Position numbers and translations under genes: made by a program
Notes under the pieces: generated by a model
Databases searched by the model: none
Seen by the model: only the letters and a program-made list of their open reading frames with translations
What the model was told of the DNA's origin: nothing
Origin: Planctomycetota bacterium
GTDB taxonomy: Bacteria; Planctomycetota; MHYJ01; JACPRB01
Direction of reading: 5' to 3'
Length of the DNA stretch: 37,754 bases
Assembly (NCBI GenBank): GCA_035574235.1
Contig: DATLZA010000134.1
Location: 1-37,754, forward strand
In this document: piece by piece, positions 998 to 27,278 of the stretch
How positions within the stretch are numbered: position 1 is the stretch's first letter
Layout: each line of letters starts with the position of its first letter

Positions 998-1006
998 AAG
1001 GTAGCT

Positions 1007-11105: not shown

Positions 11106-13760
11106 TTAGAACTGGCGGTCTTCGTGTTCGGCCAGGTCGATGATCTCCGGCGTCACCAGCATGAGCAGGCGCCGTCGTTCATCCGCCTTGGATTTCCGGG
11201 TGAAGAAGAAGTTGAGGACCGGGATGTGCTCGAGGAACGGCACCCCGGACTGCATGTCCTTCATCAGGAGATCCTTGAAGCCCGAGACGATCAGGGTTCC
11301 GCGGTCGGGGACCTGGACGGTGGTTTCGGCCTTCTGGAGGACCACCCAGGGAAGCTGCAGGAGGATATTCAGGCCGGGACGAATGTTTACCGTCCGCATG
11401 GTCTGCAGCTGCGCCAGGGAGGGCCGCAGTTCGAGGGTTACGTACTTGCGGTCGTTGGACACGATGGGCCGCACGTCGAGGACCACGCCGTGGGTGAGGA
11501 TGCCGATGATGGGGTCGTAGGCCGCGGCGAGGGTCGAAACCTGGGGTTCGTAGTCCTGAATGTAGGCCACCTGGGTCAGGAACATGACGTGGGAGCGTTG
11601 CGTGTTGAAGACCGTCACGCGCGGCGCCTGAACGAGCGTGGCCTTGAGGCCCTTGTGGAGGGCCCGGAGGGCGATCTGGAGCGCCTGTTCGCCGATCCAC
11701 TGGTACTGAAGCCCCAGGCCGCCCTGGCTGACGAGGCGGTTCTGAAGGGGGTCGATGCCGATGCCGGTCAGGGGGTCGAACCGCAGCAGCGTGTGGAACG
11801 TCTGCGCCCGCAAATCGTAGGATTCCAGCCGGGCCGACTCGTTGGTCGTGAAGCCGGGGCCGATCTGGGCGCTGGGTTCGTTGATCGAGGGGGTGTTGGG
11901 CTGACTGAGGCCGCCGACCCCGGTGTAGTCGATGCCCGGCAGCGACTGGTTGGCGCGGTTGATGATGTCCACGCCGACGTCGTCGAGGAAGTCGTCGTAG
12001 GCGGCCACGAACCGGCAGGTCACCGAAACCATGGTGCCCGTGTAACTGCGGAGCTTGCCCAGAAACTCCCGGAGCTCCCGGTGGACCTTGGGGGGGGCGT
12101 TGACGAGGAGCTGCTGGTTGGGGGTTTTCTCGATCGTCTGGTCCCCTTCCCAGGTGTTGGGGGCGATGTTTTCCTTGATGAGGTCGACGATCTGCTCCTC
12201 GCCGACGGAGGACTCCCGCGGCTCGTCGAGCGTGAAGGTCGCCCCCGTCAGCGCTCCGCCGCCCTGGGCCGAGGGGGACACCAGCTCCACTTTGGGGCCG
12301 GCGAAGTCCTGAAGCTTCACGAGAATGTCCCGGATGTCGTGCAGCTCCAGGACGTTGCCGCCCCCGGCGCTCTTGGGGTCGGTGATCAGGACCACCTTCT
12401 CTTCCGTGATCCGGTAGTCCAGGCCCACCTGACTGAGGAGAAGCTTCAGGACGTTGCGCAGCGTCGCGTCTTTGAGCTTGAAGTTGAGCGTCTTGGCCGG
12501 ATCGATGTTCGCGAGGACGGCCCCGTCGATGTGGATGTTGAGCCCCGAGAAGTCCCGGATGAAATCCAGGATGTCCTGGAGCTTCGTCTCCTCGAAGGCG
12601 AGATCGATTTTCATCGTGTCGAGCTTGCGCTCGATGGCCAGGATGTCCGGATCCTCCTCGCCGCGGGTTCCGCCCTCGGTCTTGATGACGCTCTCGGTGA
12701 TGCGCTTGGAGATTTCCGCCCATTCTTCGCGGGAGGGAAAGCGGACCGACTGGGAATACGGGATGACCGCCTCCTCGTCGTCATCCGTCAGCTGCTTCCA
12801 GTGTTCGACCTTCTTGGCCAGGATGTTGAAGTACTCTTCCTTGTGCCGGGTGCGCTGGGCGTCCTCCTTGAGCTCCTTGGCGACCGTGTAGTGGGGGTCG
12901 ATGAGAAGGATTTCGTCGCAGAGCTTGATGCAGCGGTCGAACTTCTTCTGGTCGAAGGCCATGTAGGCCAGCTCCAGGAGATGGGCGATCTTGCGGGTGA
13001 CCTCCCGCCGGTAGGCGATGTCGTGGGCGGCGGCCTCGGCCTCCGCGGCCTTGCGCTTCTCCTCTTCGACGCGCTTTTCCTCCTCGATCTTGGCGTTACG
13101 GGCCTTGACGATCGCCTCCCGCACGCGGGGGAGGAGGTCGTTCATGGCCTTCACCTCGTAGGGGATGTGGACGATTTTGAATTCGGCGTTTTCGAGTTCG
13201 CGGATCGCCTCGTCGTACATCCGGGCGTTGAAGTAGCGCTCGCCCTCGCGGATGTGGCGCGTGATCTCGATCTGAGCCTGCTCGATCTGGACGCGGAAGG
13301 CCTGGACGCTCTGGTCGGCGATGGACCGGGCGCCGAATTCGGCGCGCCCGCCGACCAGCATCTGCTGGATGTCGGCCAGAAGCTTGCGCGCGGCGAGATT
13401 TTCGGGCCACACCTGGAGCGCCTTTTCGGCCTCGACGCGGGCCTTTTCGAAGTCGCCCCGGTCGTGGTAGCGCAGCGCCACCTCGTAATGCTGCTGGGAG
13501 GCCACGCGCCGCTGCTGCTCGTCCCGCGAGCCTCCGCGGGCCAGCTCCTGAGCGATCTTCTCCATTTCCGGCGTGGTGGCCTGGATCGTGAGGGGCTTCT
13601 TCTCGGGCTCGGGCGCGGGAGGAGGCGGCGCCGGCTCGGTCTGAGCGGGCGGTTCCGGCGCGGGTTCCTCGGGCGCGGGCTCGGACGTGCTGCACCCGAT
13701 TCCGGCGGCCAGGGCCACCGCCCCGATCGCGGCCGACAGCCGAAGAAGGCGATGCGTCAT
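11106..13760 (-). CDS. TPR-containing secretin lipoprotein (GspD/PilQ family), copy 1
   Basis: This 884-residue putative outer-membrane channel starts at ATG 13760, with GGAGG 9 nt upstream. Residues 1-22 form a signal peptide before Cys23, and a proline/glutamate-rich linker follows (27-55). TPR-like helices occur at about 85-130 and 255-310, and a charged coiled coil (EEEKR repeats) lies near 218-250. The region from about 395 to 480 resembles the secretin N0/STN domain (TLNFKLKDATLRNVLKLLLSQVGL). The C-terminal secretin domain (about 600-875) has FNTQRS, VPDRGTLIVSGF, VPFLEHIPVLNFFF and the closing LLMLVTPEII. Ordinary PilQ or GspD proteins lack the N-terminal TPR/coiled-coil half. It is a paralogue of the gene at 20237-22870. 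It follows the Exb genes but has its own promoter beyond a terminator. Confidence 0.9.
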   Translation of the reverse strand: MTHRLLRLSAAIGAVALAAGIGCSTSEPAPEEPAPEPPAQTEPAPPPPAPEPEKKPLTIQATTPEMEKIAQELARGGSRDEQQRRVASQQHYEVALRYHDRGDFEKARVEAEKALQVWPENLAARKLLADIQQMLVGGRAEFGARSIADQSVQAFRVQIEQAQIEITRHIREGERYFNARMYDEAIRELENAEFKIVHIPYEVKAMNDLLPRVREAIVKARNAKIEEEKRVEEEKRKAAEAEAAAHDIAYRREVTRKIAHLLELAYMAFDQKKFDRCIKLCDEILLIDPHYTVAKELKEDAQRTRHKEEYFNILAKKVEHWKQLTDDDEEAVIPYSQSVRFPSREEWAEISKRITESVIKTEGGTRGEEDPDILAIERKLDTMKIDLAFEETKLQDILDFIRDFSGLNIHIDGAVLANIDPAKTLNFKLKDATLRNVLKLLLSQVGLDYRITEEKVVLITDPKSAGGGNVLELHDIRDILVKLQDFAGPKVELVSPSAQGGGALTGATFTLDEPRESSVGEEQIVDLIKENIAPNTWEGDQTIEKTPNQQLLVNAPPKVHRELREFLGKLRSYTGTMVSVTCRFVAAYDDFLDDVGVDIINRANQSLPGIDYTGVGGLSQPNTPSINEPSAQIGPGFTTNESARLESYDLRAQTFHTLLRFDPLTGIGIDPLQNRLVSQGGLGLQYQWIGEQALQIALRALHKGLKATLVQAPRVTVFNTQRSHVMFLTQVAYIQDYEPQVSTLAAAYDPIIGILTHGVVLDVRPIVSNDRKYVTLELRPSLAQLQTMRTVNIRPGLNILLQLPWVVLQKAETTVQVPDRGTLIVSGFKDLLMKDMQSGVPFLEHIPVLNFFFTRKSKADERRRLLMLVTPEIIDLAEHEDRQF

Positions 13761-13839
13761 GATTCCCATCCTCCACGCGGTCCCGGCCGAGACGCCGGAA
13801 CTATCTAGGAGACGAAGGAGACGGGCCAAACCCTGCACG

Positions 13840-13867
13840 ATTCTACAGGAAGCAGGAGGGGGCGCAA
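13840..13867 (-). promoter_or_regulatory. Predicted promoter of secretin copy 1
   Basis: On the minus strand TTGCGC (13867-13862), a 16-nt spacer and TAGAAT (13845-13840) form a strong match to the sigma70 pattern. It lies directly downstream of the Exb operon terminator. RNA would start near 13833, giving a leader of about 73 nt. Confidence 0.55.
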
Positions 13868-13950
13868 GAAAAAGAGAGAAGGCGACGCCGGGGGCAAACG
13901 GGACGGCGCGGGATTCGGCCTCCGTGCGGCGCCGCGGCCGGAAGGTCGGA

Positions 13951-13986
13951 AAGAAAAACGCCCCTTTCTCGGAGGGGAAAGGGGCG
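13951..13986 (-). terminator. Rho-independent terminator of the exbB-exbD-exbD operon
   Basis: On the minus strand a perfect 9-bp stem (CGCCCCTTT pairing with AAAGGGGCG, 13986-13978 with 13967-13959) and a 10-nt loop are followed at once by TTTTTCTTT. It starts about 24 nt after the stop of the second exbD. This is the clearest intrinsic terminator in the window. Confidence 0.85.
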
Positions 13987-14009
13987 CGGAAGCGCTCGAG
14001 GGACGGGGC

Positions 14010-14627
14010 TTACTTGCGCTGGAATTGCCCCTTCTGGTAGGAACCGTAGTACTTGTCGTGCCGCGGATTTCCCACGAACTCGACGTTGTCGATCCCCACG
14101 GCCTTGCACGCGTTGACCGCGCCGATGATGTGCTCGTAGGGGACCTCGCTGTCGGCGTCCAGGATCACCGGCGGCTTCTTGCCTTCGCCGCGGCTCGAAG
14201 GAATCGTCTGGTAGAGTTCGAGGGTCTTCTGCCCGAGGGCCTGGAAGACCGCCTTGTTCTGGGCGGCCTTGCCGGGGTTGGTCTCGGTCTTGTAGACGTC
14301 GCCCACCTCGATCTTTTCGACCATCACCTTGCAGACGTCGTTGGGTTTGTCGGCCTTCTCGTGGCGGCCCTTGTCCTGAAGGTGGGTGCGGGTATCGCCT
14401 CCCGCGCAGATGACGATCCGCACCTCCTGAAGCTCCGGCTGGAGCTGGTGCGTGGGCGCCAACCCCTTGTCCTTCGGGAGCTGGGAGAGGAGCTTGCCCT
14501 CGATCTCCTTGAAGTGCATCGACAGCATGAAGAAGATCAGCAGCTGGAACACGACGTCGATCATCGGCGTCATGTTGAGCTGTTCGGTCTTGACGTCGTC
14601 CGCCTGGCGTCGCCTTCTGCGGGCCAT
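14010..14627 (-). CDS. ExbD/TolR-family motor protein, long form
   Basis: This 205-residue single-pass inner-membrane protein has a basic cytoplasmic start (MARRRRRQ). The conserved NMTPMIDVVFQLLIFFML segment (about 18-35) contains Asp24, the proton-pathway residue of ExbD/TolR. The periplasmic part is longer than in typical ExbD (about 140 residues), with an extra charged section around 75-150. The end (VILDADSEVPYEHIIGAVNACKAVGI) matches the conserved ExbD C-terminal domain. It is the last gene of an exbB-exbD-exbD operon, 1 nt after the previous stop, with GGAGG inside that gene's end. An intrinsic terminator follows. It should work with ExbB as a proton-driven stator. No TonB was seen in the window. 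Confidence 0.93.
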   Translation of the reverse strand: MARRRRRQADDVKTEQLNMTPMIDVVFQLLIFFMLSMHFKEIEGKLLSQLPKDKGLAPTHQLQPELQEVRIVICAGGDTRTHLQDKGRHEKADKPNDVCKVMVEKIEVGDVYKTETNPGKAAQNKAVFQALGQKTLELYQTIPSSRGEGKKPPVILDADSEVPYEHIIGAVNACKAVGIDNVEFVGNPRHDKYYGSYQKGQFQRK

Positions 14628-14628
14628 C

Positions 14629-15105
14629 TTACTTACCCTCCTGCTTGGCGCCCAGCTGGACGCGCGTGACGCCCCCGTGGTGCGTGGCGATCATGAGGAT
14701 CTTCTGGATGTGCTCGAAGGGGGTCGATCGGTCCGCGCGGATGAGGACGGGGTACTTCACCCAGTCCGCTTTCCCCGGCACCTCCTGGTACTTCTGGTTC
14801 TGACGGTAGGACTCGAAGAGGTCCTCGAGTTTCTTGTTATCGTCCCCCATCTTCGAGGACCAGAAGGTCTTGCCGTTGATCTTGATGGTCCCGTCCTTCA
14901 TGATGTTGACGACCAGCGTCAGCGGGTCCTCGACCTTCTCTTTGATGGCTTTGTGGGCGTAGGGAAGGACCACGGGCTCCAGCTGAGCCTTCGACATGTC
15001 GGTGACGATCATGAAGAAGATGATCAGCTGGAACGTGACGTCGATCATCGGCGTCATGTCGAAGCCGTCGTTTTCCACCTCGGAGGGCAGCTTCCTGCGG
15101 GCCAT
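14629..15105 (-). CDS. ExbD/TolR-family motor protein, short form
   Basis: This 158-residue single-pass inner-membrane protein has a basic start (MARRKLP). The DMTPMIDVTFQLIIFFMI membrane segment (about 16-33) carries the proton-pathway Asp22, and a periplasmic domain ends in VLIRADRSTPFEHIQKILMIA, typical of ExbD. An AAGGAGG ribosome site precedes the ATG by 5 nt. It sits between exbB and a longer exbD paralogue, so the motor may be a heteromer of two different ExbD chains on an ExbB pentamer. Similar exbB-exbD-exbD arrangements are known in several Gram-negative phyla. The partner here may be the nearby secretin/Pil proteins, but that is inferred from position only. Confidence 0.94.
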   Translation of the reverse strand: MARRKLPSEVENDGFDMTPMIDVTFQLIIFFMIVTDMSKAQLEPVVLPYAHKAIKEKVEDPLTLVVNIMKDGTIKINGKTFWSSKMGDDNKKLEDLFESYRQNQKYQEVPGKADWVKYPVLIRADRSTPFEHIQKILMIATHHGGVTRVQLGAKQEGK

Positions 15106-15123
15106 GGGGGCCTCCTTCCTTCG

Positions 15124-15909
15124 TTACTTGCCCTGAGCCCCGCCCTCGGCCACGGGCTTGAAGCGCTCCACGATCTCCATGGCCACGCCGGAAAGCTCGA
15201 AGGAGAGCTTCTGGACCTTCACCTTGAAGAGGTAGCTGAAGAACGTCGCCGGCATCGCCACGATCAGGCCCCACACGGTCGTGACCAGGGCGGTGAAGAT
15301 GCCCTGCGCCAGTTCCTGGGGCGAGGGGGTGCCCGTGGACATCGCGATCTGCGTGAAGGCCATCACCATGCCGGTGACCGTGCCGAAGAGGCCCATGAGC
15401 GGCCCGATGTTGCCCAGGAGCGGGAGCCAGCTGATCTTGTGCTGGAGCTTGAGGTTCTGCTCGTCGGTGGCGGCTTCGGCCGCGGCGACCATGGCGTCAT
15501 ATCCCTCGCCCACGCGGGCGATCGCGGCGCCGACGATGTTGGTGATATAGTTTTTCGTCGCCTCGCAGAGGTTGATGGCCTCCTCGTACTGCTCTTCATC
15601 GAGGAGCGTTTCGAGCTCCACCACCACCTCGGGCGGGACGAGTTTGTCGCGCTGGATCGTAACGAAGTGCTCGATGATGAAGGCGACCGTGGCGATCGAG
15701 GCGACTTCGATGGGCAGGAGGAAGATGAAGCCCACGCCGCCGCCGCCGAGGATCCAGACGGTGAAGAAGCTGAAATCCGCGGAAGAGGCCTTCGAGCCTC
15801 CGCCTTCCTCTTGCGCGAACGCGAGGGCGGCCACCGCGAGATTCAACCCGGCGACGGCCAGAGCGGACCCGACCCACGAACGAAGCGACGGCAGCTTGAA
15901 CGACCTCAT
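15124..15909 (-). CDS. MotA/TolQ/ExbB proton channel protein
   Basis: This 261-residue polytopic inner-membrane protein starts at ATG 15909. An N-terminal signal-peptide-like helix ending near Ala-Phe-Ala-Gln is followed by a Gly/Ser-rich linker. A first membrane helix (about 47-75) follows, then a cytoplasmic domain with LDEEQYEEAINLCE, then two long helices with the ExbB signature LLGNIGPLMGLFGTVTGMV and TALVTTVWGLIVAMPATFFSYLF. These are the conserved pore-lining segments. Upstream codons in the same frame could add 29 residues, but they lie in the predicted leader and look non-native. It has its own promoter about 90 nt upstream and heads the exb operon. The extra signal peptide is common in ExbB proteins of PVC-type bacteria. 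Confidence 0.95.
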   Translation of the reverse strand: MRSFKLPSLRSWVGSALAVAGLNLAVAALAFAQEEGGGSKASSADFSFFTVWILGGGGVGFIFLLPIEVASIATVAFIIEHFVTIQRDKLVPPEVVVELETLLDEEQYEEAINLCEATKNYITNIVGAAIARVGEGYDAMVAAAEAATDEQNLKLQHKISWLPLLGNIGPLMGLFGTVTGMVMAFTQIAMSTGTPSPQELAQGIFTALVTTVWGLIVAMPATFFSYLFKVKVQKLSFELSGVAMEIVERFKPVAEGGAQGK

Positions 15910-15996
15910 CCCAGCACCCCCACAAAGATCCCGCTCGGTGACGGTTTCCGGGCGCCGGCGGGTGCGGCGCCGGAATCGGCCTGCCCCAGACCTCAA

Positions 15997-16025
15997 ACTC
16001 TAGCAGCGGGGCCGGGCCGAATCAA
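15997..16025 (-). promoter_or_regulatory. Predicted exbB promoter
   Basis: On the minus strand TTGATT (16025-16020), a 17-nt spacer and TAGAGT (16002-15997) lie in the 160-nt gap between the TPR gene and exbB. RNA would start near 15990, giving a leader of about 81 nt. Confidence 0.5.
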
Positions 16026-16069
16026 GCTCTACGCTCTGGACGCGCCCAGGCCCTCATTTCCCTGCGGGC

Positions 16070-17197
16070 TTATTGCTTGCGCGGCTCGGTCTTGTCGTCC
16101 TTGGGTTCGTATTTCGCGGCCTTGGCCACGGCCTCCTCGCGGTACCGCCCGGAGGGATACTCGATCGAGACCTCGCGGAAGGCGCCCGAGGCCTGTTGCG
16201 CGAGAAACTCCCGCGCCTTGGGATCTTTGGCGGCCTCGAGAAGCTCTTCGTAACAGCGCGCCAGGCGGTAGAGCGCGTGCTCGTGTTCGCGCTCCAGTCC
16301 TCCGCCCCGGCCGGGGTAATAAAGGACGACGCTTCGCACGTAGAAGTCGCGCGCCTGGGCGAACTGCTTCTTCTCGAACCGCAGGTCCCCGAGGGCGTTG
16401 GAGGCGATCAGAAGGAGCGCCGGTTGCGTGGCGGTCGTGAGCACGCCGTTGCAGAAGGTCTCCAGCCCCTGAGCGTCCTTGAGGCCCCGGAGGCACCGGA
16501 TCACGCCCGCCGTGGCTTCCGCGGCGGTCTCCGGATCGGCGGAGCTCTTGAGGGCTTCGAAGAGCTTGCGGGCTTCGTCGTACCGGTTCTTGTCGTAGAG
16601 AAGTTCGGCTCGCTGGCGGCGGGCCTGGTTGACGAGGTCCGTGCGCAGCTCCGCCGGCGCCTGCTCGATCTCCTTCTCCACCGCCTCCATGCCCTTTTCG
16701 TCGCCTTTCTCGCGGTGCGCCTGAAGGGCCAGCGTGTAGGCGTCCGCCAGGAATCGGGAGTCCTTGAAGTCCTTGCGGATCCGGGCGAACTCCGGAATCG
16801 CCTGGTCGAGCCGCCCGAGGTTGAGCTCGCAGAGCCCGCGATAGTAGGCCACGTAGGCGGGGAACCATCCCCGGGGCTTGACGACGCCCTTCTCCTTGGA
16901 GTTGGCGTATTCCTCGGCGCTCTTGAGGGAGGAGAGGGCTTCCGACCACTTCTCACCCTCGATCTGGGCCATGGCGCCCTTGAAGGCCAGGGGGGCGTCG
17001 GCGTATTCGATCCGGCGGACGTCCTGCGGGCGGAAGGTCTGGGAGCCTCCGGCCGTCTGGACGACGACCTCTTTCCAGGTGTCTTTCTGGACCGTGCCTT
17101 CCACGGGATTACCGCGGTGAAGGACCACGCGGTCCCGCGCCGGAGGCGCCTGGGCCGCCGCCAGGAGCGCCGCCAGTCCGATCGTGGCCACGTTCAT
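16070..17197 (-). CDS. Exported TPR-repeat protein, small
   Basis: This 375-residue protein starts at ATG 17197, with AGAGGTGA 4 nt upstream and the stop of the larger TPR gene 10 nt upstream. A short signal peptide (about 1-17) is followed by a small beta domain at 22-65 (VVLHRGNPVEGTV to QDVRRIEY) that resembles domains found in planctomycete exported proteins. The rest is helical, with tetratricopeptide-type repeats (for example YRGLCELNLGRLDQAIPEFA, DKNRYDEARKLFEAL, EKKQFAQARDFYVRS). It should be periplasmic or envelope-associated and act as a protein-protein scaffold. Its place between secretin copy 2 and exbB suggests it belongs to the same envelope assembly. Confidence 0.88.
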   Translation of the reverse strand: MNVATIGLAALLAAAQAPPARDRVVLHRGNPVEGTVQKDTWKEVVVQTAGGSQTFRPQDVRRIEYADAPLAFKGAMAQIEGEKWSEALSSLKSAEEYANSKEKGVVKPRGWFPAYVAYYRGLCELNLGRLDQAIPEFARIRKDFKDSRFLADAYTLALQAHREKGDEKGMEAVEKEIEQAPAELRTDLVNQARRQRAELLYDKNRYDEARKLFEALKSSADPETAAEATAGVIRCLRGLKDAQGLETFCNGVLTTATQPALLLIASNALGDLRFEKKQFAQARDFYVRSVVLYYPGRGGGLEREHEHALYRLARCYEELLEAAKDPKAREFLAQQASGAFREVSIEYPSGRYREEAVAKAAKYEPKDDKTEPRKQ

Positions 17198-17207
17198 GGG
17201 TTCACCT

Positions 17208-20123
17208 CTAGCGCTTCTTCGGGAGAATCTCTTCGAGTCTCTTGCGCAGGCTCTCGAACTTTGGGCGGAAGCCCCACCGGCTCTGACCCTTCTCGTCGGC
17301 ATCCCACGAGGGGGCGTAGCCCCGCAGCTCCATGGTGTCGAAGAAGCGGGCCAGCGCGTCGGGGTCGAGCTCGAAGAGGCACTCCGCGCGCTTGTAGAGG
17401 AGCCGGTACGTGTGCTCGTTGAAAACCTGGCTGGACATCAGAAGACCGGCCAGCTCCGCGTAGGTGCTTTCGGCCCGGCGCAGGAGTTCGTTCCGCGGTC
17501 CGCCTTTGGGCATGGACATGGCCTGAGCCACGTAGCAGTCGGACAGGTCCTCCCAGGAGCTGCCGTCGCGCTTCTGAGGGTCGTTGCGGACGATCTCCTC
17601 GTAGATCTTGACCGCGTCCTCGAACTGGCCCACGCGGAGCATGCAGCGGGTGAGCCGCGACTTGATCGCGCGGATCTGGTCCTTGGGAAGCTGGGCTTCT
17701 TTTTCCAGGAGGAACCCCTTGTACAGCTCGAGCGCTTTGGTATAGATCCGGCGGACCTCCTCCATGCCCTCCTTGCCGAGCTTCGCTTCGCCCAGTTTGA
17801 AGCGCTGCTCGGCGGCCATGAAGAGCTTGTCCGCCATCGCTTCCATCTGTTCCGGGCGGGCGACGGCGCTCGGATTGAGGTTGTAGTACTCGTAGTAGTA
17901 GGTGGCGGCCTTGACCGCGTAGAGGTCGTAGAGCTCCGGGTTCTTGTCGCGTTCCTTTTCGGCCGCTTCCTCGAAGGCGTTGGCCAGGACCGCCAGGGCC
18001 CGGGCGTAGTGGTCCATGCCCAGGCCGCCTTCCTTCTCATAACGCTCCTTGAGGGTGCGCAGATCGTCTTCCGCCTCCTGGACCTGGCCCAGGCGGATCT
18101 TGGCGTCGATCCGGCTGGAGAGGATCGCCATGAGGAGCTTGGGGTCGGCGTTGGGGAAGCGCTTGTCGGCGTCGTTGGAAATGGCCAGCGCCTCCTGGGG
18201 GCGGCCGATGCGTTCATGGGAGAGGATCTTGGCGGAGAAGTAGACCGATCCGATGGCGCGGCGCACGACGCGCGGTTCCTTCCCGGTCATCTTCTCGACG
18301 AAGTCGAGGTGCCGGCGGAAGGATTCCAGGGCCCGCTTCCAGGCGTCGGCCGCCTGGGCCAGGAGCCGGTCGCGTTCGGCGGCGGTCTTCCCGCGCGCCT
18401 GATCCATGAGCTGAAGCCCGTAGTTGTAGAGGCTGAAGCCCACGCTGAAGGTCGCCTCCTCGTAGGCGTCGCGTCCGGGCTGAGCCAGTTTTCCCCACTC
18501 GGCGGCGGCCTTGTCGAACTGGCGCTTGTCGTCGTAGTCGATGGCGGTCTGGCGGATGAGCTGATCGCTGGCCTGGTTGGGGAAGGCCTTGGTCACCCAG
18601 ACGCGGTAGTCCTCGAAGGCTTTCTGATCGGCCTTGTCGCCGGTGGCCTGGGCGATCTTGCCGAGGGAGGTGAGCTTGCGGAGGGCCGCCTCAGGGGCCT
18701 TCTCGTGCTGGTTGAACGGAGGCTTTTCGAGCATCGAGAGGGCGGCGACCGCCTCGTAGTGGCGGCCCAGGAGGAAGTAGCACTTGCCGAGCTGGGCCCA
18801 GCAGTAGGGGACGAACTTCTGGTCTTCCGGCCGGCGGATGGACTGAAGCGCCCGGCGATATTTCTGGATGGCCCGGTAGACGTAGGCGGGGCCGCGCTCC
18901 AGGAAGTTGTCGGCCGCCTCGATGGCCAGCTGGACGGAGTCGTTGGCGGCGTACTCGCCCAGGTAGTCGATCGCGAGGCTCTCGACCCAGGTGTCCTTGT
19001 ATTTGGTCTTGAGTTCCTGGAGGAGTTTGGCTCCCTTGTCGGTCTGGCCGGCCTTGCAGTAGGCCCGCGCCTGTTCCAGGAGGAGCGCCTTGCCGATCTC
19101 CTCGAGGCGGGCCTGGGGGAACATCTTGAAGAAGTCCTCGGCCAGGCGGGCGGCGTCGGCGTAGTGCTTGACGGCGGCCTGTCCGCGGCGCGCGTCGCCG
19201 TAGGCCAGCCGCGCCTTCATCTCGAACAGCAGCGCGTGCGCGGCCACGTCGCGGACATCCTCGCTCTTTCGGTTCTCGGGATCGCTCAGGAGGCTGCGCG
19301 GCCGGCCCAGGTTCATGAAGGCCTGCCTCCAGTATTCCTCCGCCTTCTCCCGATCCGCGGATTCCGCCAGGAGCTGGTAGGCCCGTCCCACGTACACCGA
19401 CGCGTCGTACGCCAGAAGATAGCGCTCGTACTGCCACATGAACTCGTCGGTGATGAACTTGATCATTTTTTCCAGGAGACGCTTCATGTCGGCGTGCTTG
19501 GAGGCGTTCTCCCGGTAGGTTTCGGCGTGGTTGAAGAGCGCGATGCCATAGTTGTACTTGGCCAGCATCATGCGTTCGTCCCACCGCTCGTACTCCTCCT
19601 GCGCCTTGGGATCCTTGCGCGGATCCTCGGGGGGACGTTTCTCTTCCTTCTGGAGCTGCGCGATCAGGTCGGTGAAAAGCTTTTCGGCGGCGGCGAAGGC
19701 TTTTTCCGCCTCCTCGGCTTTGGAGGGATCGACCTTGGCCGCCGCCATGAGGGCCTTGCCCTTGGCCTGATAGAGATCGCCGATATCCGAGAGGGCCTCG
19801 CCCTTGCGGCGGTGGTTGGGGTGTTTGGCCAGGAGGGCCTCGACTTCCTTGACCGCGCGGTCGATCAGCTTGGCCTTTTCCTCGGGAGCGTCAGCACGGT
19901 TGGCCATGAGGATTTTCAGGCGGGCCAGGCCGTACTCCCCGTCGGCTTTAATCTCCGGGGTGGCGCCGGAGTCGCGGATCCTGGAGAAAACCTCCTCGGA
20001 GAGATCCCACCAGCCGCGCTCGGCCAGGGCGCTGCCGAGCTCGTAATCCTGGGCGGCCGGGGCGGGCAGGGCGGCGGCCAGGAAGGCGGCCGCGAAGACC
20101 GGAATCGCCGGGACGGCTTTCAT
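17208..20123 (-). CDS. Exported TPR-repeat protein, large
   Basis: This 971-residue protein has a clear signal peptide (MKAVPAIPVF..., hydrophobic to about residue 20, cleavage near Pro-Ala-Ala-Gln). The mature chain is almost wholly helical, with many tetratricopeptide-like pairs, for example around KAGQTDKGAKLLQEL, LGKCYFLLGRHYEAVAAL and VGQFEDAVKIYEEIV. No enzyme motif or other membrane segment was seen. A GGGGGTGA ribosome site precedes the ATG. It follows secretin copy 2 after 113 nt and is tightly coupled to the smaller TPR gene. TPR proteins of this kind often stabilise secretins or pilus subcomplexes (compare PilF/PilW and BamD), which fits the context, but the exact role is unknown. 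Confidence 0.9.
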   Translation of the reverse strand: MKAVPAIPVFAAAFLAAALPAPAAQDYELGSALAERGWWDLSEEVFSRIRDSGATPEIKADGEYGLARLKILMANRADAPEEKAKLIDRAVKEVEALLAKHPNHRRKGEALSDIGDLYQAKGKALMAAAKVDPSKAEEAEKAFAAAEKLFTDLIAQLQKEEKRPPEDPRKDPKAQEEYERWDERMMLAKYNYGIALFNHAETYRENASKHADMKRLLEKMIKFITDEFMWQYERYLLAYDASVYVGRAYQLLAESADREKAEEYWRQAFMNLGRPRSLLSDPENRKSEDVRDVAAHALLFEMKARLAYGDARRGQAAVKHYADAARLAEDFFKMFPQARLEEIGKALLLEQARAYCKAGQTDKGAKLLQELKTKYKDTWVESLAIDYLGEYAANDSVQLAIEAADNFLERGPAYVYRAIQKYRRALQSIRRPEDQKFVPYCWAQLGKCYFLLGRHYEAVAALSMLEKPPFNQHEKAPEAALRKLTSLGKIAQATGDKADQKAFEDYRVWVTKAFPNQASDQLIRQTAIDYDDKRQFDKAAAEWGKLAQPGRDAYEEATFSVGFSLYNYGLQLMDQARGKTAAERDRLLAQAADAWKRALESFRRHLDFVEKMTGKEPRVVRRAIGSVYFSAKILSHERIGRPQEALAISNDADKRFPNADPKLLMAILSSRIDAKIRLGQVQEAEDDLRTLKERYEKEGGLGMDHYARALAVLANAFEEAAEKERDKNPELYDLYAVKAATYYYEYYNLNPSAVARPEQMEAMADKLFMAAEQRFKLGEAKLGKEGMEEVRRIYTKALELYKGFLLEKEAQLPKDQIRAIKSRLTRCMLRVGQFEDAVKIYEEIVRNDPQKRDGSSWEDLSDCYVAQAMSMPKGGPRNELLRRAESTYAELAGLLMSSQVFNEHTYRLLYKRAECLFELDPDALARFFDTMELRGYAPSWDADEKGQSRWGFRPKFESLRKRLEEILPKKR

Positions 20124-20150
20124 CAGTCACCCCCTTCGGGAAGGACGAAA

Positions 20151-20172
20151 CCCGCGGCCCGAGGTCCGCGGG
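20151..20172 (-). other. Hairpin between secretin copy 2 and large TPR gene
   Basis: A perfect 7-bp inverted repeat (CCCGCGG/CCGCGGG) with an 8-nt loop is followed on the minus strand by TTTCG. It could reduce read-through from the secretin gene into the TPR genes or protect an RNA end. The T-run is too short for a confident terminator call. Confidence 0.4.
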
Positions 20173-20236
20173 ATCTCCCGCCCTATCTTAACGGGCCGGA
20201 CCCGGCCGGGGTTCGCCGCCGCGGGAATCCGCGCGG

Positions 20237-22870
20237 CTAGAACCGGCGGCGCTCCTCTTCGTCGGGGATGATGATGCGGACCCGCACGATGATGAGCGTC
20301 TGCTGGCGCTGGAGGCCCTTGACCTTCATGGATCCGAGGTTGCCCACGATGGGGATCGAGCGCCAGATCGGGATCGAGCTTTCCGCGTCCTCGTCGAACA
20401 TGACCGTGAGGCCGCCCAGCATGAGCGTGCCCCGGTCCGGCACGACGACGGTCGTGCGGATGCGCTGGATGTTGATGATCGGCGTTTCGATGTTGACGGG
20501 CAGGGGGTCCGTGACGACCGCGCCCGGAGCCGTGACGTTGGTCGTGATCGTGAAGATGTTGGGCGGCCGCGGGAAGAGGGTGGCGATCGTGGGCCGGAGT
20601 TCCAGCGTCACGAACCGCCGGTCCGCGCTGACCACGGGACGCACGTCCAGCGAGATGCCGTCGGAGACCACGTCCACGATGGGATCGAGCGCCACGGCGG
20701 CCGTGGCGATCTGGACGTCGTAGTCCCGCACGTAGGCCATCTGGTTGGAAATGCGGAAGTTGCCGCGCTGGGTGTTGAAGAGCGTGAGCTTGGGCGCGGT
20801 CAGGACGTGGCTGCGCTCGCTCTTGGAGATGAGCCGGATGATCGTCTCCAGCGAAATGTCGTCGAGCAGCGTGTACTGGAGCGTGGCCCCGCCCAGGGGG
20901 GAAAGCACGGTGTTGAAGAACCGCTGGACGAGGAAGTCGCCCGTCATGATCTGCTGGATGCGGGCTCCCATCGAGCGCTGGACCGAATCTCCGAAGACGC
21001 CGGTGATGCCCGCCGAGGTCGCCGGCAGCGTCACCACCGAGCCGGCCGGGAGGAACGGCGGGTTGATCGCCATCGTCGGGTTGATATCCGCCAGCGTCGT
21101 GATGCCCTGGACCCGCGCGCCGTTGACGTCGCGGAAGTCCATGCCCACCTGCTGGAGGAAGTCGTCCTCCACCAGGAGGAACCGCGCTTCCACGGCCACG
21201 AGCATGCTCGTCGAGGCCCGAAGGTCCGAGAGGAACTTCCGCACCGCCCGGTGCACCTCGATCGAGTTGCGCACGATGAGCAGACCGCTGCTGAACTGGA
21301 TGGATTTCCCGTCGGCTTCCTCCCACTCGTTCTTGTGGATCGTGTTCTTGATGAGGGTGGCCAGGTCCTCGCCCGTGAACTGGGCGCGCGTCTCCTCGCC
21401 CTGGGCGATCGTGGTGCCGATGGCGTCCTGGGCGAGCGAGATGTCCACGCCCGGGAAGTCCTGCATGCCGTAGGTCAGGTCCTGCACGTCGTACAGCTCG
21501 AGCTTGACCGCCTTCTTGAGCTGGTCGAGCGGGGTGATCAGGACGATTCCGTCGCGGACCGTGTGGCCGAGCTGTCGGGGCCCGAGCATGAGCTTGAGCG
21601 CGGCGTCGATCGGGATGTCCGTCACCTTGAACGACTGGATGCGGGTTTCCTGCGGATTCTCGACGCCGGCGATGTGGAAGTTCAGGCCGCTGATGTCGCG
21701 GATGTAGTTGACCACCTCCGTCAGCGGCGCGTCCTGCATGTCGATCGTGATCCGCAGCGCCCTGAGCTTGTCGAGGATCTCCTTGTCCTCGGGCTTGATG
21801 TCTTCGTCGAGCTGGGCGATCCCCTTGGGCTTGCGCTTGGAGACGAGCTCCTTCCAGGTCTCCATGTCCGGGAATTCCAGATCCTGAGCCTGGACGATGC
21901 CGTTGAGTTCGATCTGCTCGAAGGTCCGCTTCCACTCCTCGACGTAGTTCTTCAGGTTTTCGCGCGCGGCGCGGCTGTGCCGGAGCCGCTGGGCCACGTT
22001 GCGCATCTCCGCGACGGACGTGACGTTCGGGTTGATGTAGAGGATCTTGTCGCAGACCATGATGCAGCGCTCGTATTCCTCGCGCTCGAAATGCATCTGC
22101 GCCTGGCCGAACAGGAGCTCCAGCTCCCGCTTCTGGTCGATGAGGCGGCGGAGGTCCTCGCGCGCCTTTTCCTCCTCGATCATCTTCTGGCGCGCCTTTT
22201 CCTCCTCGATCGAGCGGTTCTTGCTCGCTTCCTTGGTCCGCTCCAGCATTTCCAGGGCCTGCTTTCGGCGCGTTTCCAGCTCGACCCCCGTGGGCATCCA
22301 CTTGGCGTATTCGAGGATCTTGCGGAACTCGCGCTCGGCGGCGTCGTATTCGCCCCGGTTGTAGTGCCGGGTTCCCCGCGAGAGGGCTCCGTCGATCTCC
22401 AGGATCGTCTGCTGGTGCCGGACCTGAGCCTCCCGCATGAACTTGTCGTACTCGGCCGTGACGGGGGTGACGGCGCCGCGTCCCAGGAGGAAATTCACTT
22501 CCTTGAGAAGCGCCTGCGCGCCGAGATGGTTCCCGTTGATCTGGAGGGCCTTTTCGCACTCGCGGGCGGCCTTGTCGAAATCTCCCGCCTCGTAGTAGCG
22601 CATGGCCAGGCGGTAGTGCTCATCCGCCTGCGCGCCCTTCTGCTGCTCGCTCACCTCGTGGGAGGAACGAAGCTTGCGGAGGATCTCCTCCCACTCCGCC
22701 CCGGCCGCCTGGCCGGCGGGCGCTCCCGCCGCGGGCTCCGGCATCCTCTGGGGCTCGCGCTCCGGCGGCGCGGACGGCGCGGGCTCCGCCGAGGACGACG
22801 GCGCGGCGCCCGACGAACAGGCCGCCAGCGCGACCGCGAGGGCGAGGGCGAGGATCCGAATCGGCATCAT
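20237..22870 (-). CDS. TPR-containing secretin lipoprotein (GspD/PilQ family), copy 2
   Basis: This 877-residue lipoprotein starts at ATG 22870, with AAGGAG 6 nt upstream. The signal peptide ends in a textbook lipobox, LAAC, with Cys18. A proline-rich linker follows, then TPR-like helices (about 80-150 and 260-300), a glutamate/lysine-rich coiled coil (about 205-250), and an N0/STN-like domain (about 380-470, LNFHIAGVENPQETRIQSFK then IDAALKLML). The C-terminal secretin domain (about 570-870) includes LTLFNTQRGN, VVVPDRGTLMLGGL and SIPIVGNLG. It has the same architecture and size as the secretin at 11106-13760, so the pair arose by duplication and then diverged. It lies downstream of pilMN, pilO and the FN3-like gene, where PilQ sits in type IV pilus operons. 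Confidence 0.92.
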   Translation of the reverse strand: MMPIRILALALAVALAACSSGAAPSSSAEPAPSAPPEREPQRMPEPAAGAPAGQAAGAEWEEILRKLRSSHEVSEQQKGAQADEHYRLAMRYYEAGDFDKAARECEKALQINGNHLGAQALLKEVNFLLGRGAVTPVTAEYDKFMREAQVRHQQTILEIDGALSRGTRHYNRGEYDAAEREFRKILEYAKWMPTGVELETRRKQALEMLERTKEASKNRSIEEEKARQKMIEEEKAREDLRRLIDQKRELELLFGQAQMHFEREEYERCIMVCDKILYINPNVTSVAEMRNVAQRLRHSRAARENLKNYVEEWKRTFEQIELNGIVQAQDLEFPDMETWKELVSKRKPKGIAQLDEDIKPEDKEILDKLRALRITIDMQDAPLTEVVNYIRDISGLNFHIAGVENPQETRIQSFKVTDIPIDAALKLMLGPRQLGHTVRDGIVLITPLDQLKKAVKLELYDVQDLTYGMQDFPGVDISLAQDAIGTTIAQGEETRAQFTGEDLATLIKNTIHKNEWEEADGKSIQFSSGLLIVRNSIEVHRAVRKFLSDLRASTSMLVAVEARFLLVEDDFLQQVGMDFRDVNGARVQGITTLADINPTMAINPPFLPAGSVVTLPATSAGITGVFGDSVQRSMGARIQQIMTGDFLVQRFFNTVLSPLGGATLQYTLLDDISLETIIRLISKSERSHVLTAPKLTLFNTQRGNFRISNQMAYVRDYDVQIATAAVALDPIVDVVSDGISLDVRPVVSADRRFVTLELRPTIATLFPRPPNIFTITTNVTAPGAVVTDPLPVNIETPIINIQRIRTTVVVPDRGTLMLGGLTVMFDEDAESSIPIWRSIPIVGNLGSMKVKGLQRQQTLIIVRVRIIIPDEEERRRF
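22161..22211 (-). repeat. Short in-frame repeat in secretin copy 2 coiled coil
   Basis: A 21-nt sequence at 22161-22181 is repeated exactly at 22191-22211, a 30-nt period. It encodes two copies of IEEEKAR in the coiled-coil stretch. It is a coding repeat and may vary in copy number between strains. Confidence 0.7.
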
Positions 22871-22894
22871 CGGGCGCTCCTTTGGAACCATCTC

Positions 22895-22922
22895 AATATA
22901 GAGGGCTCCCTCGAACGGGCAA
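22895..22922 (-). promoter_or_regulatory. Predicted promoter of secretin copy 2
   Basis: On the minus strand TTGCCC (22922-22917), a 16-nt spacer and TATATT (22900-22895) form a good sigma70-type match. RNA would start near 22888, giving an 18-nt leader that includes the AAGGAG ribosome site. Confidence 0.5.
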
Positions 22923-22985
22923 GAAATTTCAGCCCCATCTATTGGACGGGAACGGCGGGAAGGATCCCTGCAACGCGCCGCGCGG

Positions 22986-24221
22986 CTATTTCTGCGGCGC
23001 CTCCGCCTTCTCGGGCTTGTCCGGCGCGCCTCCGGCGGGACGGACGCCTCCGTGGATTTCGCAGAACTCGTCCCGGGCCCGGGGGCTGTCCTTCGGATTG
23101 GGGATCAGAAGCGTCTGCTCCGCTCCTCCTTCGGACACGACGATCTCGTAAATGTCGTGGAAGACCCGCTTCTCCTTGACGAACTGGCACTGCCCCGCCC
23201 CCTGCGCCGTGATCTGCTTCTTGCACTTCGTGATCTCGAGCGTCACGGTCGTGGGTTTGATCGATACGAGCGTCATGCCCGTGTTGAAGTCCACGGTGTG
23301 GGCCCGGCCGCCTCTGGAAATCGGGTGCATCGACGTGGGCTCGCCGCCCTGACCCTCGGGCCACCAGCCGATCTTCTCCCCGGGACGCTGGAACTGGCGG
23401 ATTTCAACGGGCCCCAGCTCGCGGTCGTGCTTCTCGATCTTCACCCACACCTGATAGGCGTCCTGTCCGGGAACGCGTCCCGGATTGATGAAAGTCACCC
23501 GGAAAATCCCCAGCGTCTGAACGGGGCTGGGGAGCGAAAGCACCACCGGATCTCCCTCGCGGGGCTTGCGGCCCTGCTTGTCGGGCTCCACGTAGGCCTT
23601 GACGCGGTAGTTGTACTTCGTCTTGGGCTCGATCCGGGTGTCCTTGAAGTTCTTGGTCGTGGGGGGCAGCTTGTCGGCCAAAATTTCCCATTTGCCGGAG
23701 CCGGCCACCTCCCGTTCGACGCTGAAGTGGCTGTACTTGAGAAGATCGAATTCCTTCTGGAGCGCCAGCTCCTCCTGGCGCGTGAAGGCTTTGACGTCCC
23801 AGCTGATCGTCACGCCGTCCAGACCCACGTCCACCGGCCCGAGCGTGACGGGCGGGACTTTGACCTCCTTGACCGCGACCTTCGGCCGCTCGATCGCCTT
23901 GGCGCGGATTTCGGGGAGGCCCGTGGCGGCGAAGTCGTTGGCGCCCCGGGCGCTGGCGATGACGTTATTCCAGGGTTCCACCGCCCGGGCCGCCCAGGGC
24001 TCGGGGGCCGGAGGGTCGTACTGCGCGTCGCCGTTCTGGCGCTCGCGCGAAAGGCGCTCCACCTCGCGCCGGACTTCCGAAGGGGCCCGGTCTTCCTGGG
24101 CCATCAGGACGCCCAGCACGAGGTAGCCCAGCAGCGCCGCGGCCGCAACGCCCAGCCCGAGCTTTTCCCCGTGGGCGGCCAGAAACGCCTGCGCCGTGCC
24201 CGCCTTCTTCGCCTCGGCCAT
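22986..24221 (-). CDS. Membrane-anchored FN3-like protein in the PilP position
   Basis: This 411-residue protein starts at ATG 24221, with AGGAAGGAG 6 nt upstream. A short cytoplasmic start and one membrane helix (about 20-40) are followed by a periplasmic linker rich in proline and charge. A beta-rich region at about 115-220 looks like a fibronectin type III domain (VTISWDVKA, then TRIEPKTKYNYRVKAYVEP). A further beta-rich domain (about 225-390) contains two or more cysteines (CKKQ, GQCQF, FCEIHG). The tail is Pro/Glu/Lys-rich. The gene follows the PilM-N and PilO genes and precedes a secretin, which is where PilP normally lies. It may link the PilNO complex to the secretin, but it has no recognisable PilP lipobox or HR domain, so homology to PilP is not claimed. 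Confidence 0.82.
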   Translation of the reverse strand: MAEAKKAGTAQAFLAAHGEKLGLGVAAAALLGYLVLGVLMAQEDRAPSEVRREVERLSRERQNGDAQYDPPAPEPWAARAVEPWNNVIASARGANDFAATGLPEIRAKAIERPKVAVKEVKVPPVTLGPVDVGLDGVTISWDVKAFTRQEELALQKEFDLLKYSHFSVEREVAGSGKWEILADKLPPTTKNFKDTRIEPKTKYNYRVKAYVEPDKQGRKPREGDPVVLSLPSPVQTLGIFRVTFINPGRVPGQDAYQVWVKIEKHDRELGPVEIRQFQRPGEKIGWWPEGQGGEPTSMHPISRGGRAHTVDFNTGMTLVSIKPTTVTLEITKCKKQITAQGAGQCQFVKEKRVFHDIYEIVVSEGGAEQTLLIPNPKDSPRARDEFCEIHGGVRPAGGAPDKPEKAEAPQK

Positions 24222-24262
24222 ACCCGGCTCCTTCCTCGAACCCCCCGTTCGGAGGATCCTCT

Positions 24263-24292
24263 ATATTAGACGCCGCCCGCGCACCCGCGCTA
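24263..24292 (-). promoter_or_regulatory. Weak candidate promoter upstream of FN3-like gene
   Basis: On the minus strand TAGCGC (24292-24287), an 18-nt spacer and TAATAT (24268-24263) lie in the 68-nt gap after the PilO-like gene. The -35 overlaps that gene's stop codon. The match is weaker than the other promoters listed. Confidence 0.3.
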
Positions 24293-25381
24293 GGGCTGCG
24301 CCTCCTCGAACTTCCGGGCCTTTTCCGGTTCGAAATCCAGGACCTGACAGGACACCGTCAGGAGCACGTCCATGGGACGGACCTTCGCGCGCTCCGCCGC
24401 TTCCTTGGCTTTCCGGTCCGCGTCCTCGCCCCGGTAGTACACGAATTCCACCTCGGGGACGACCTGGTCCCGGATCGTCAAGTGCGCCCCCACGACGTTG
24501 ACCAGCAGCCGTTCGCTGGCGCTTGTCTCGTAGGCGGGGTTGAGAATCTCCCGCAGCACCTTGGGCACTTCGCTCGGCGGGAGCTCCAGCGCGAACCCGA
24601 ACGTCATCGTCCGACCGACCTCGTGCTCGGGATCCGGAATCGCATACTCCACGTAATTGCGGGGAACGCCCGTGCCGGGATCGGCGCCCACGCCCTGGTA
24701 GAAGACCGCGTCCGGGCCCGTCGGAGGCTGCTCCCAGGGGGCGTTCTGGAGCCGGTCATGGAGCTTGCGGAAGAAGCGGAAATCGTGGATGCGGGTGACG
24801 CGGGCGCCGCCTTTGAGGATGGCGTTGGCCACCCGCTCGCGCGCCCAGTAGCGCTTCTGAAGCTCCTTGAGGACGCGCTCTTCATCTCCCGGCTGTCCCC
24901 GGCGCCGGATCTCGTCGAAGTCCCCGGGCTGCGGGTCTTCCCAGTTGAATCCGAACCGGCGCTTCTCGTCGTCGCCGACCACGCCGATCTGCACGTTCTT
25001 TTTCCGAAGCTCCTCCTCGAGCGCCCCGTAGTGCTTGCGGTACTCCGCCATGAAGAGGCCGCTGGCGGGGTTCGAGGGGAGGCCCGGAAACCAGCGCTCC
25101 AGGTGCTTGTCGCTGTCCGCGTAGAACTTCACGATCTCGCCGTACGCCTTGATCATTTGTTCGCGATACGCCCGCCAGCGTCGAATGTTGGGCTCGCCCG
25201 GAATCTTCTCCTGCTTGAGCTCGGCCAGCAGCCCGCCGCTCCCCCGCAGGCCGGCCAGCTCGCGCCGCAGGCGCTCCTTCTGGCTTCCCAGCGGCAGGAC
25301 CGCCAGGACGTAGAAGGCCGCCAGGACCGCCGCCGCGGCTCCAACCCCCACCCAGAAGGCGTTCTTCCTGATCTTGTCCAC
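24290..25381 (-). CDS. pilO: PilO-like inner-membrane protein
   Basis: This 363-residue protein starts at GTG 25381, with AGGAGGG upstream in the end of the pilMN gene and a 10-nt gap. It has a short positive cytoplasmic tail (DKIRKNAFW), one membrane helix (about 9-31, ending in VLPLGSQ), a helical segment (about 32-150) and a C-terminal alpha/beta region. This is the topology of PilO, which pairs with PilN in the periplasm. Sequence identity to PilO is not obvious by eye. The protein is longer than typical PilO (about 200 residues), with an added section around 130-230 (GFNWEDPQPGD, RVANAILKGG). The assignment rests on topology and gene order. The symbol should be read as a positional homologue. 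Confidence 0.65.
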   Translation of the reverse strand: MDKIRKNAFWVGVGAAAAVLAAFYVLAVLPLGSQKERLRRELAGLRGSGGLLAELKQEKIPGEPNIRRWRAYREQMIKAYGEIVKFYADSDKHLERWFPGLPSNPASGLFMAEYRKHYGALEEELRKKNVQIGVVGDDEKRRFGFNWEDPQPGDFDEIRRRGQPGDEERVLKELQKRYWARERVANAILKGGARVTRIHDFRFFRKLHDRLQNAPWEQPPTGPDAVFYQGVGADPGTGVPRNYVEYAIPDPEHEVGRTMTFGFALELPPSEVPKVLREILNPAYETSASERLLVNVVGAHLTIRDQVVPEVEFVYYRGEDADRKAKEAAERAKVRPMDVLLTVSCQVLDFEPEKARKFEEAQP

Positions 25382-25391
25382 GGCGTCCCTC

Positions 25392-27278
25392 CTACTTTTT
25401 CTCGCCGCCCTTGTCGGCGGCGGCCAGGGCCTTGCGCTGCTCTTCGCCCACGGGGATCTGGAGCGTCACCCGGTAGCGCCAGTAGTTCTTGCGCTCCGGC
25501 TCGTTCTCGAGCCGCTTCTGGAAGCCGCGCGGGACCGGCCAGGCGAGCGCCTCCGTGATCGGATGGTCGAGCTCCACCTGCCAGAAACCCACGGGTCCCT
25601 GCCCTTCCGCCAGCTCCCAGTAGGGATTCTTGACGGCGCAGGGCTGGGCGGGCTTGACCGGGGCCTTGCGGAGCGGATCGTAGTTGAGCAGGGTGCGGAT
25701 CACGAAGTCCCGCCCCTGCGCGTCGGTGCTTCGCTTGGCGATGACCACTTCGAGCGTCGTCACGAGGATTTTCTGGGTCGGATAGGGCTTCGGCTGGCCG
25801 GCCGTGGCGGGGTTGAAGACCGCCGGGGCGGCCCCGCCCTCGGCCGCCTTCGGACGCTCCTTCTCCTCGAATTTCCAGTCCACCACCCACAGCTTCTGGT
25901 CCGCCGGAAGCTCCCAGTTTCCGTTGTCCGGAAGGTTCGGATTCAGGAGGTCCATCACCTTGAGGATGAGGTCGCGTTCGGTCGAAATCCGCACCAGAGG
26001 CTCCAGCTGGGCGCGGATCTCGTCCACCTGGATCGCCTGCTCGTACTCGGCCTTCTGGGCGGCGGCCTCCTGCTTGGCCTGTTTGGCCCGGGTGACCGCC
26101 TTCTGGAGCTCGTCGCGCTCCGAATACTGTCTCCACCCCATCAGGCCGACCAGCGCGTAGAGCGCCGCCACGGCCGCCACGACGTAAGGCTGCTTGCGGC
26201 GCAGCTCCTTGCGGCGCCGGTGCGCCGGCGGGAGCAGGTTGATCCGGTTGACCGTCTCGCCCAGGCCCTGAAGCGCCAGCCCGAGCGCCGTCCCCAGGCC
26301 CGCCAGGTGCTCCTGAAGATCGCCGGGATCGACCTGGCCGCCCACCTGCACCGTGTTGAGCTTCTGGAGCCGGACGGCGGGAAGCTGCAGGGATTGCGAG
26401 ATGAACTTCTGGAAATTGAGCGTCTTGGTGGCGTTCCCGAGGAGCAGGATCTTCTCGAACTTCGAGGTTTTCGAGATCGACTTGTAGTACCCCGTCGAGC
26501 GGTTGATCTCGTTGACGAGGTCGCGCAGGACGGGCTGGACGGCGTTGAAGATCTTCTGGGCCTGCTGGGACTGGGCCGCCCGGAGCTTGAGTTTCTCGGC
26601 CTCCTCGAAGGGAAGATTGAAGGCCTTCTGGAGCGCTTTGGTCAGGTCGTTGCCGGTGATCGGCAGGTTCCGCACCCAGAACTTCGTGCCGTCGATGACG
26701 ATGAGATCCGTGTTCTCCGCCCCCATGTCGAGCGCCACGGTGGGGCCGGACAGCTCCTGGTCCCGCACCAGGAAGTTGAAAAGCGCCACGGGGGCGAACT
26801 GGACCGCCTCCACGTTCAGCCCGAGGTCGGCGATGTTGGCCAGGAACTGCTCGACGATGTCCCGCTTGATGGCGAAGAGGATGACTTCCTTCTCCTCGCC
26901 GGGGACGTAGTCCCGGTCCACGTACTGGTAGTCCCAGAGGACTTCGTCCATGGGGAAGGGGATCTGGGACTGGGCCTCGTACTTGACGACCTCCGGGATC
27001 TTGGCGTCCTCCACCGGCGGGAGCTTGACGAGCCGGTTGAGGATGGAATGGCTGGGCAGCGACAGGACCACGGGCTCGCCGGCGATCTTGTACTGGGCTT
27101 TGACCTGGGCGAGGGCGGTCCGGATCTGCCGGTCCACCCCCCCGGGTTCGCCGGAACCCGATTCCTCGTAAGGGAACACCCCCACGTGGGTGAGGGTGAC
27201 GCCCCGCCCGGATCCCTCGAGCCGCGCGACCTTGATGCTGTACTTGCTGACGTCGATGCCCCAGACGCCTCGTGCCAT
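25392..27278 (-). CDS. pilM: PilM-PilN fusion protein (type IV pilus/secretion alignment complex)
   Basis: This 628-residue protein joins two usually separate pilus proteins. Residues 1-340 are PilM, an actin-like cytoplasmic ATP-binding protein: WGIDVSKYSIKVARL at the start, VKLPPVEDAKIPEVVKYEA, the second phosphate motif ALDMGAENTDLIVIDG (182-197) and the adenosine motif ILLLGNATK (277-285). Residues from about 341 are PilN: the INLLPP signature (346-351) that normally lies at the PilN N-terminus and anchors PilM, a membrane helix (about 365-382), a coiled coil (about 383-420) and a periplasmic domain. In canonical operons PilM binds the PilN tail as a separate chain, so fusion fixes a 1:1 ratio. 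It heads the pil-like cluster, after a leader of about 230 nt if the TATAAT at 27521-27516 is used. Confidence 0.92.
   Translation of the reverse strand: MARGVWGIDVSKYSIKVARLEGSGRGVTLTHVGVFPYEESGSGEPGGVDRQIRTALAQVKAQYKIAGEPVVLSLPSHSILNRLVKLPPVEDAKIPEVVKYEAQSQIPFPMDEVLWDYQYVDRDYVPGEEKEVILFAIKRDIVEQFLANIADLGLNVEAVQFAPVALFNFLVRDQELSGPTVALDMGAENTDLIVIDGTKFWVRNLPITGNDLTKALQKAFNLPFEEAEKLKLRAAQSQQAQKIFNAVQPVLRDLVNEINRSTGYYKSISKTSKFEKILLLGNATKTLNFQKFISQSLQLPAVRLQKLNTVQVGGQVDPGDLQEHLAGLGTALGLALQGLGETVNRINLLPPAHRRRKELRRKQPYVVAAVAALYALVGLMGWRQYSERDELQKAVTRAKQAKQEAAAQKAEYEQAIQVDEIRAQLEPLVRISTERDLILKVMDLLNPNLPDNGNWELPADQKLWVVDWKFEEKERPKAAEGGAAPAVFNPATAGQPKPYPTQKILVTTLEVVIAKRSTDAQGRDFVIRTLLNYDPLRKAPVKPAQPCAVKNPYWELAEGQGPVGFWQVELDHPITEALAWPVPRGFQKRLENEPERKNYWRYRVTLQIPVGEEQRKALAAADKGGEKK

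Follow-up and report, generated by a model that had tools for sequence, protein, structure and literature searches.

The window, which is the whole stretch of DNA analysed (37,754 nucleotides), belongs to contig C134 of a planctomycete genome of 4.06 Mb in 203 contigs, estimated to be 99.3% complete and 4.7% contaminated. Ten minus-strand genes at positions 11106-27278 encode, in order, a PilM-PilN fusion (PilMN), a PilO-like protein, an FN3 membrane protein, TPR-secretin A, the exported TPR proteins TPRa and TPRb, ExbB, ExbD1, ExbD2 and TPR-secretin B (Table 1). A gene set of this composition, on one strand, had been proposed from the DNA letters alone, and all ten members were confirmed in place by domain matches, profiles or folds.

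Table 1. Features of the window, with the evidence for each.
Feature	Position	Strand	Evidence and remarks
PilM-PilN fusion, 628 aa	25392..27278	-	PF11104 (PilM_2) E 3e-37; PDB PilM E 4e-26
PilO-like protein, 363 aa	24290..25381	-	TM, coiled coil, alpha-beta domain; fold comparison
FN3 membrane protein, 411 aa, in the PilP/GspC position	22986..24221	-	TM, FN3 domain, second beta domain
TPR-secretin A, 884 aa	20237..22891	-	PF00263 E 2e-21, TPR, weak STN; lipoprotein signal (lipobox LAAC)
TPRa, exported TPR protein, 971 aa	17208..20123	-	TPR/PPR-type repeats; signal-peptide-like N-terminus
TPRb, exported TPR protein	16070..17197	-	TPR_6 E 1.5e-9; likely start 17197, not 17302
ExbB/TolQ-type motor protein	15124..15909	-	PF01618 E 3e-24; likely start 15909; extra N-terminal TM or signal segment
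ExbD1/TolR-type motor protein	14629..15105	-	PF02472 E 2e-17; Asp22 of MTPMID invariant
ExbD2/TolR-type motor protein, second kind	14010..14627	-	PF02472 E 3e-18; Asp invariant; EGKL...LPK signature
Terminator-like hairpin between exbD2 and secretin B	13958..13987	-	11 pairs, T-rich tail; consensus match only
TPR-secretin B, probable lipoprotein	11106..13769	-	PF00263 E 8e-23, TPR, weak STN
Response regulator	986..1612	+	MerR/HTH_17-type DNA-binding domain; adjoins the next gene
PAS histidine kinase	1617..2762	+	
Open frame, 908 aa	3098..5824	-	No Pfam match; overlaps another long frame on the opposite strand; maybe spurious (GC-rich sequence)
Protein, 253 aa	7966..8727	-	Weakly similar to GspE (E 7e-8) and DUF4388
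Protein, 883 aa	31943..34594	-	Only recognised part is a C-terminal DUF2950 stretch

Gene layout and domain composition

After correction of three starts (TPRb, ExbB and secretin B, the last to near 13769 or 13760), the intergenic gaps within the cluster range from 1 to 249 bp, and the flanks are unrelated housekeeping genes, namely radical-SAM, DHH, UDG and MnmA-type genes at one end and, at the other, genes for HAD, GuaA and ribonucleotide reductase. Secretin B may be transcribed separately from the rest of the cluster, given the terminator-like hairpin that precedes it, although such matches are in total no more frequent than in shuffled sequences.

The PilM-PilN fusion is composed of a cytoplasmic actin-like PilM, an INLLP motif, a single transmembrane segment (about residues 364-382) and a PilN-like periplasmic part. 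The PilN half has no Pfam PilN match and is recognised by the conserved INLLP motif and by the NCBIfam Amuc_1101 profile (NF045709), which reaches residue 455 and matches the protein with an E-value of 2.7e-77 and 261 bits, against a cut-off of 650 bits. The PilO-like protein was assigned from its AlphaFold2 model (pLDDT 76.5), for which the top 10 Foldseek matches in the PDB were all Akkermansia Amuc_1100 (best E 5e-5, prob 1.00), with Pseudomonas PilO (2rjz; E 0.27, prob 0.96) ranked lower. The third protein matches FN3 domain profiles (E 2e-19), and its model (pLDDT 72.6) retrieves FN3 tandems in Foldseek. Its C-terminal domain looked similar to PilP/GspC by eye, a kinship that was unsupported when checked.

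In both secretins the secretin domain is C-terminal, and neither gives a Secretin_N match. The secretins match the Amuc_1098 family (NF042912), secretin A with an E-value of 8e-22 and 77 bits, the cut-off being 750 bits. In a tree of 19 pairs, the copies group according to their place upstream or downstream, with 2 label changes where shuffles give 13 and none of 500 shuffles as low, implying an old duplication of which both copies have been retained; lipoprotein-type signals are usual in members of both lineages. As for the motor, the proton-path Asp of the MTPMID motif is kept in 20 of 20 ExbD1 and ExbD2 sequences, in line with the original prediction of a proton motor, and residues T206 and T240 of ExbB are invariant in 15 sequences.

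Conservation across the Planctomycetota

The named database records of PilMN relatives are Planctomycetota, and inspection of neighbourhoods at 40 places in relatives recovered the gene order of the cluster in many families. The phylum was surveyed with a spread of 118 well-assembled genomes, each at least 90% complete, in which PilMN was called at E<=1e-100 and was present in 66. In 29 of these 66 genomes, belonging to 17 families, PilMN and the best cluster-type ExbB lie on one contig and strand less than 20 kb apart, whereas about 0.2 genomes would be expected from chance position. The same linkage was seen in three more families among the fetched neighbourhoods, giving a range of 17 to 20, or about 20 families, and with this recurrence the order is neither chance nor a binning error. 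The Exb and pil-like genes are true, conserved neighbours in relatives, so a lack of such adjacency, named beforehand as a refutation, did not occur. Further counts come from 35 loci with a cluster-type ExbB, several of them cut by contig ends. A TPR gene stands directly upstream of ExbB in 34 of them, two ExbDs follow it in 32, and a TPR-secretin lies upstream at 27 loci and downstream at 19. Those ExbB loci that were picked on ExbB only provide independent evidence through the TPR, ExbD and secretin genes around them. The position of TPRa upstream of TPRb is likewise conserved in relatives.

The link between PilMN and ExbB was not seen in the remaining 37 of the 66 genomes, some cases being due to contig ends, and several complete genomes (families f32 and f11) have truly unlinked modules, which argues against strict operon conservation. 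In the split cases examined, both modules are retained in the same genome. Members of genus g10 carry PilMN-PilO-FN3-FN3-secretin-TPRb-secretin at one locus and ExbB-ExbDs-TPRa elsewhere; the FN3-type genes are in tandem, and the detached motor locus holds two or three ExbDs (loci L046, L048, L049, L050; L091-L094, L097). In Ca. Uabimicrobium amorphum, a planctomycete able to engulf other cells, PilMN-PilO-secretin and TPRa-TPRb-ExbB-ExbD-ExbD stand at separate places, so that both halves of the set are kept (L237, 2806000-2825900, and L113); the Ca. Uabimicrobium paper mentions neither pili nor Exb. Some families have a secretin-TPR-TPR-ExbBDD-secretin block without a recognisable adjoining PilMN, and at one such block (L232) a divergent PilM-like gene (E 7e-33) lies alongside. 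Two loci titled Ca. Kuenenia stuttgartiensis (L117) and Actinomycetota (L160) contain typical planctomycete clusters and may come from mislabelled MAGs.

The separability of the halves in genus g10 and Ca. Uabimicrobium is what two independent operons lying merely side by side would produce. However, adjacency has been retained across the 17 to 20 families, TPR-secretins occur on both sides of the ExbBD block, and both halves persist where they are split, which makes such a coincidence very improbable. The products of the cluster quite probably form one machine and would assemble into one complex.

ATPases, TonB and Tol components of the genome

No ATPase had been noticed in the window, and for the cluster this extends to every relative examined: a search of 59 loci found neither PilB/GspE nor PilC/GspF in their clusters, whereas in control loci these queries matched 14 and 4 times. 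The lone weak GspE match in that search is the separate 253-aa window protein of Table 1; its other partial likeness, DUF4388, is found again in other genes of the same genome near envelope loci. A genome-wide lack of ATPase is ruled out, as six full-length GspE/PilB-type ATPases (G000 contigs C24, C33, C56, C100, C128 and C130) and several PilT-like ATPases are encoded on other contigs, and these may be shared with the cluster. The genome further contains a separate type II secretion locus, with GspE, F, J and K and a PilM+PilN protein. It also encodes two classical secretins that carry Secretin_N, and another two PilM genes are present. A complete separate pilus locus with ATPases and no partner secretin had been named as the finding that could account for pilMNO; type II secretion and type IV pilus ATPases do exist elsewhere in the genome, but so do classical secretins and other PilM and PilN proteins, and this refuting result did not occur. 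The same facts bear on the idea of a type IV pilus-like fibre that is served by the platform and secretins but has its ATPase and pilins encoded elsewhere, with ExbBD stabilising or opening the gate. Such fibres use PilMNO-secretin as their alignment module, the ATPases are at hand, crateriform structures bear 12-nm fibres (PMC5394234), and the Akkermansia kin of the kind encoded by Amuc_1098-1102 have been named pili proteins (PMC4960237). On the other hand, the lack of any PilC or ATPase relative at the 59 loci and the possession by the classical loci of their own secretins make a pilus accessory unlikely.

TonB is absent from the cluster, as originally noted, but not from the cell, since four TonB_C genes are present on four other contigs; a genome-wide lack of TonB is thereby ruled out, and these proteins could couple to the ExbBD motor of the cluster. 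The affinities of the motor proteins lie closer to TolQ/TolR than to ExbB/ExbD in NCBIfam comparisons (the window ExbB scores 61 bits for TolQ and 41 bits for ExbB, both under the cut-off). This suits a proton-driven connector which, in relatives without TolB, would tether the inner and outer membranes to each other or constrict the outer one, as does the TPR protein adjoining the motor, which recalls Tol-Pal. TolB, searched as TolB_N, was not found in 30 genomes of the phylum, PilM is FtsA-like, and crateriform structures fasten the membranes (PMC5394234). Nevertheless, TolA, TolB and Pal are missing from the cluster (three OmpA-type genes are present in the genome, none of them within it), and two gated secretins are hard to account for in a mere tether, so a purely Tol-like role appears distinctly unlikely.

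Kinship and proposed role

Both the platform and the secretins are distantly related to the Amuc_1098-1102 products of Akkermansia muciniphila, another member of the PVC superphylum, whose genes form one cluster (PMC5332112). That cluster likewise encodes a TPR-secretin of about 900 aa (Amuc_1098), a PilM-like protein (Amuc_1101) and a PilO-fold protein (Amuc_1100), whereas the planctomycete proteins score far under the equivalog cut-offs of the corresponding profiles. As published, the Akkermansia cluster has one secretin and no Exb genes, to which the planctomycete cluster adds a second secretin, the FN3 protein, TPRa and TPRb, and ExbBD. No paper in the literature searched brings PilM and ExbD together in Planctomycetes. 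The system had been put forward as one not recognised as described, but its parts are not wholly undescribed, PilMN, PilO and the TPR-secretins having distant kin in Amuc_1101, Amuc_1100 and Amuc_1098. The mucin-import gene list of Davey et al. 2023 for Akkermansia reportedly includes an Exb locus near Amuc_0543-0550. Amuc_0546 is termed a biopolymer transporter (PMC11480725), and Akkermansia has been reported to import large pieces of mucin, for which genes for pili and a periplasmic complex are needed (PMC12418764; PMC11790493).

Other known systems share parts of the proposed machine. The alignment modules of type IV pili and type II secretion (PilMNOP-Q and GspLMC-D) are alike in having PilM, PilN, PilO, a transmembrane protein in the PilP/GspC place and a secretin, while the planctomycete locus differs in its lack of an ATPase or PilC/GspF and in secretins that carry TPRs instead of Secretin_N. 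TonB-ExbB-ExbD and Tol-Pal share the motor protein families and key residues; neither TonB nor TolA, TolB and Pal accompanies them here. AglRQS-Glt, the gliding motor of Myxococcus, likewise has a single protein of the TolQ/ExbB type and two of the ExbD type (PMC3169522), and it includes TPR proteins. The cluster proteins gave no NCBIfam match to a gliding family, and Glt proteins were not recognised with a profile set that contains none specific to Glt. AglRQS-Glt itself is not known to include PilMNO or a secretin.

The anatomy of the locus is well supported, namely its gene content and conserved gene order, the ancient pairing of the secretins, the conserved motor residues and the lack of ATPases on the spot. 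In the proposed machine, PilM-PilN, the PilO-like protein and the FN3 protein would form an inner-membrane platform, the two TPR-secretins would build outer-membrane gates of one kind or two, and ExbB with its two different ExbDs would act as a proton-driven motor whose force could be relayed by the exported TPR proteins or by the platform. It would thus resemble the alignment body of a pilus or type II secretion system in which a TolQR/AglRQS-like motor has replaced the cytoplasmic ATPase. The earlier suggestion of a channel driven or gated by proton motive force is plausible, and half of its parts have known kin. It is somewhat probable that the ExbBD motor acts on or gates the secretins, by a transmission of force that we infer.

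Regarding the direction of transport, most secretins serve export, and proton motors are able to power secretion, as GldLM does for type IX secretion. Two observations count against a proton-powered machine secreting proteins or polymers: the surroundings of the cluster contain no recognised conserved gene for a cargo, a signal or a pseudopilin, and its kinship is with Akkermansia envelope proteins tied to mucin import. Export is accordingly a reading to which we give little credence. The likeliest job would instead be to bring large molecules such as polysaccharides or glycoproteins into the periplasm by an energised passage through the secretin gates. That uptake is the main role is a tentative assignment, both in direction and in cargo, and the best explanation of the whole, an envelope-spanning uptake machine driven by a proton motor, is held with slightly less than even confidence.

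Physiology known from the phylum is compatible with such uptake. Gemmata and Planctopirus take dextran up into the periplasm, and dextran binds the fibres on crateriform structures, which link the outer and inner membranes (PMC5394234). Uptake was recorded in 23% of 1,065 Gemmata cells and in 0 of 816 cells with the protonophore CCCP, and the responsible system was described by the authors as 'still to be characterized' (PMC5394234). As CCCP lowers ATP too, this loss does not single out ExbBD. A gated, proton-driven and membrane-spanning complex, conserved in much of the phylum, would fit the Gemmata uptake, a connection that we infer. The further step of regarding the cluster as the macromolecule uptake machine of the phylum and the core of the crateriform structures, with a two-secretin channel powered by ExbBD instead of an ATPase, is rather doubtful.

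For the energy-dependent uptake of whole polymers and proteins by planctomycetes, the cluster offers a concrete and conserved set of genes for knock-out. If the proposed coupling is true, a pilus or secretion platform can be joined to a proton motor rather than to a traffic ATPase.
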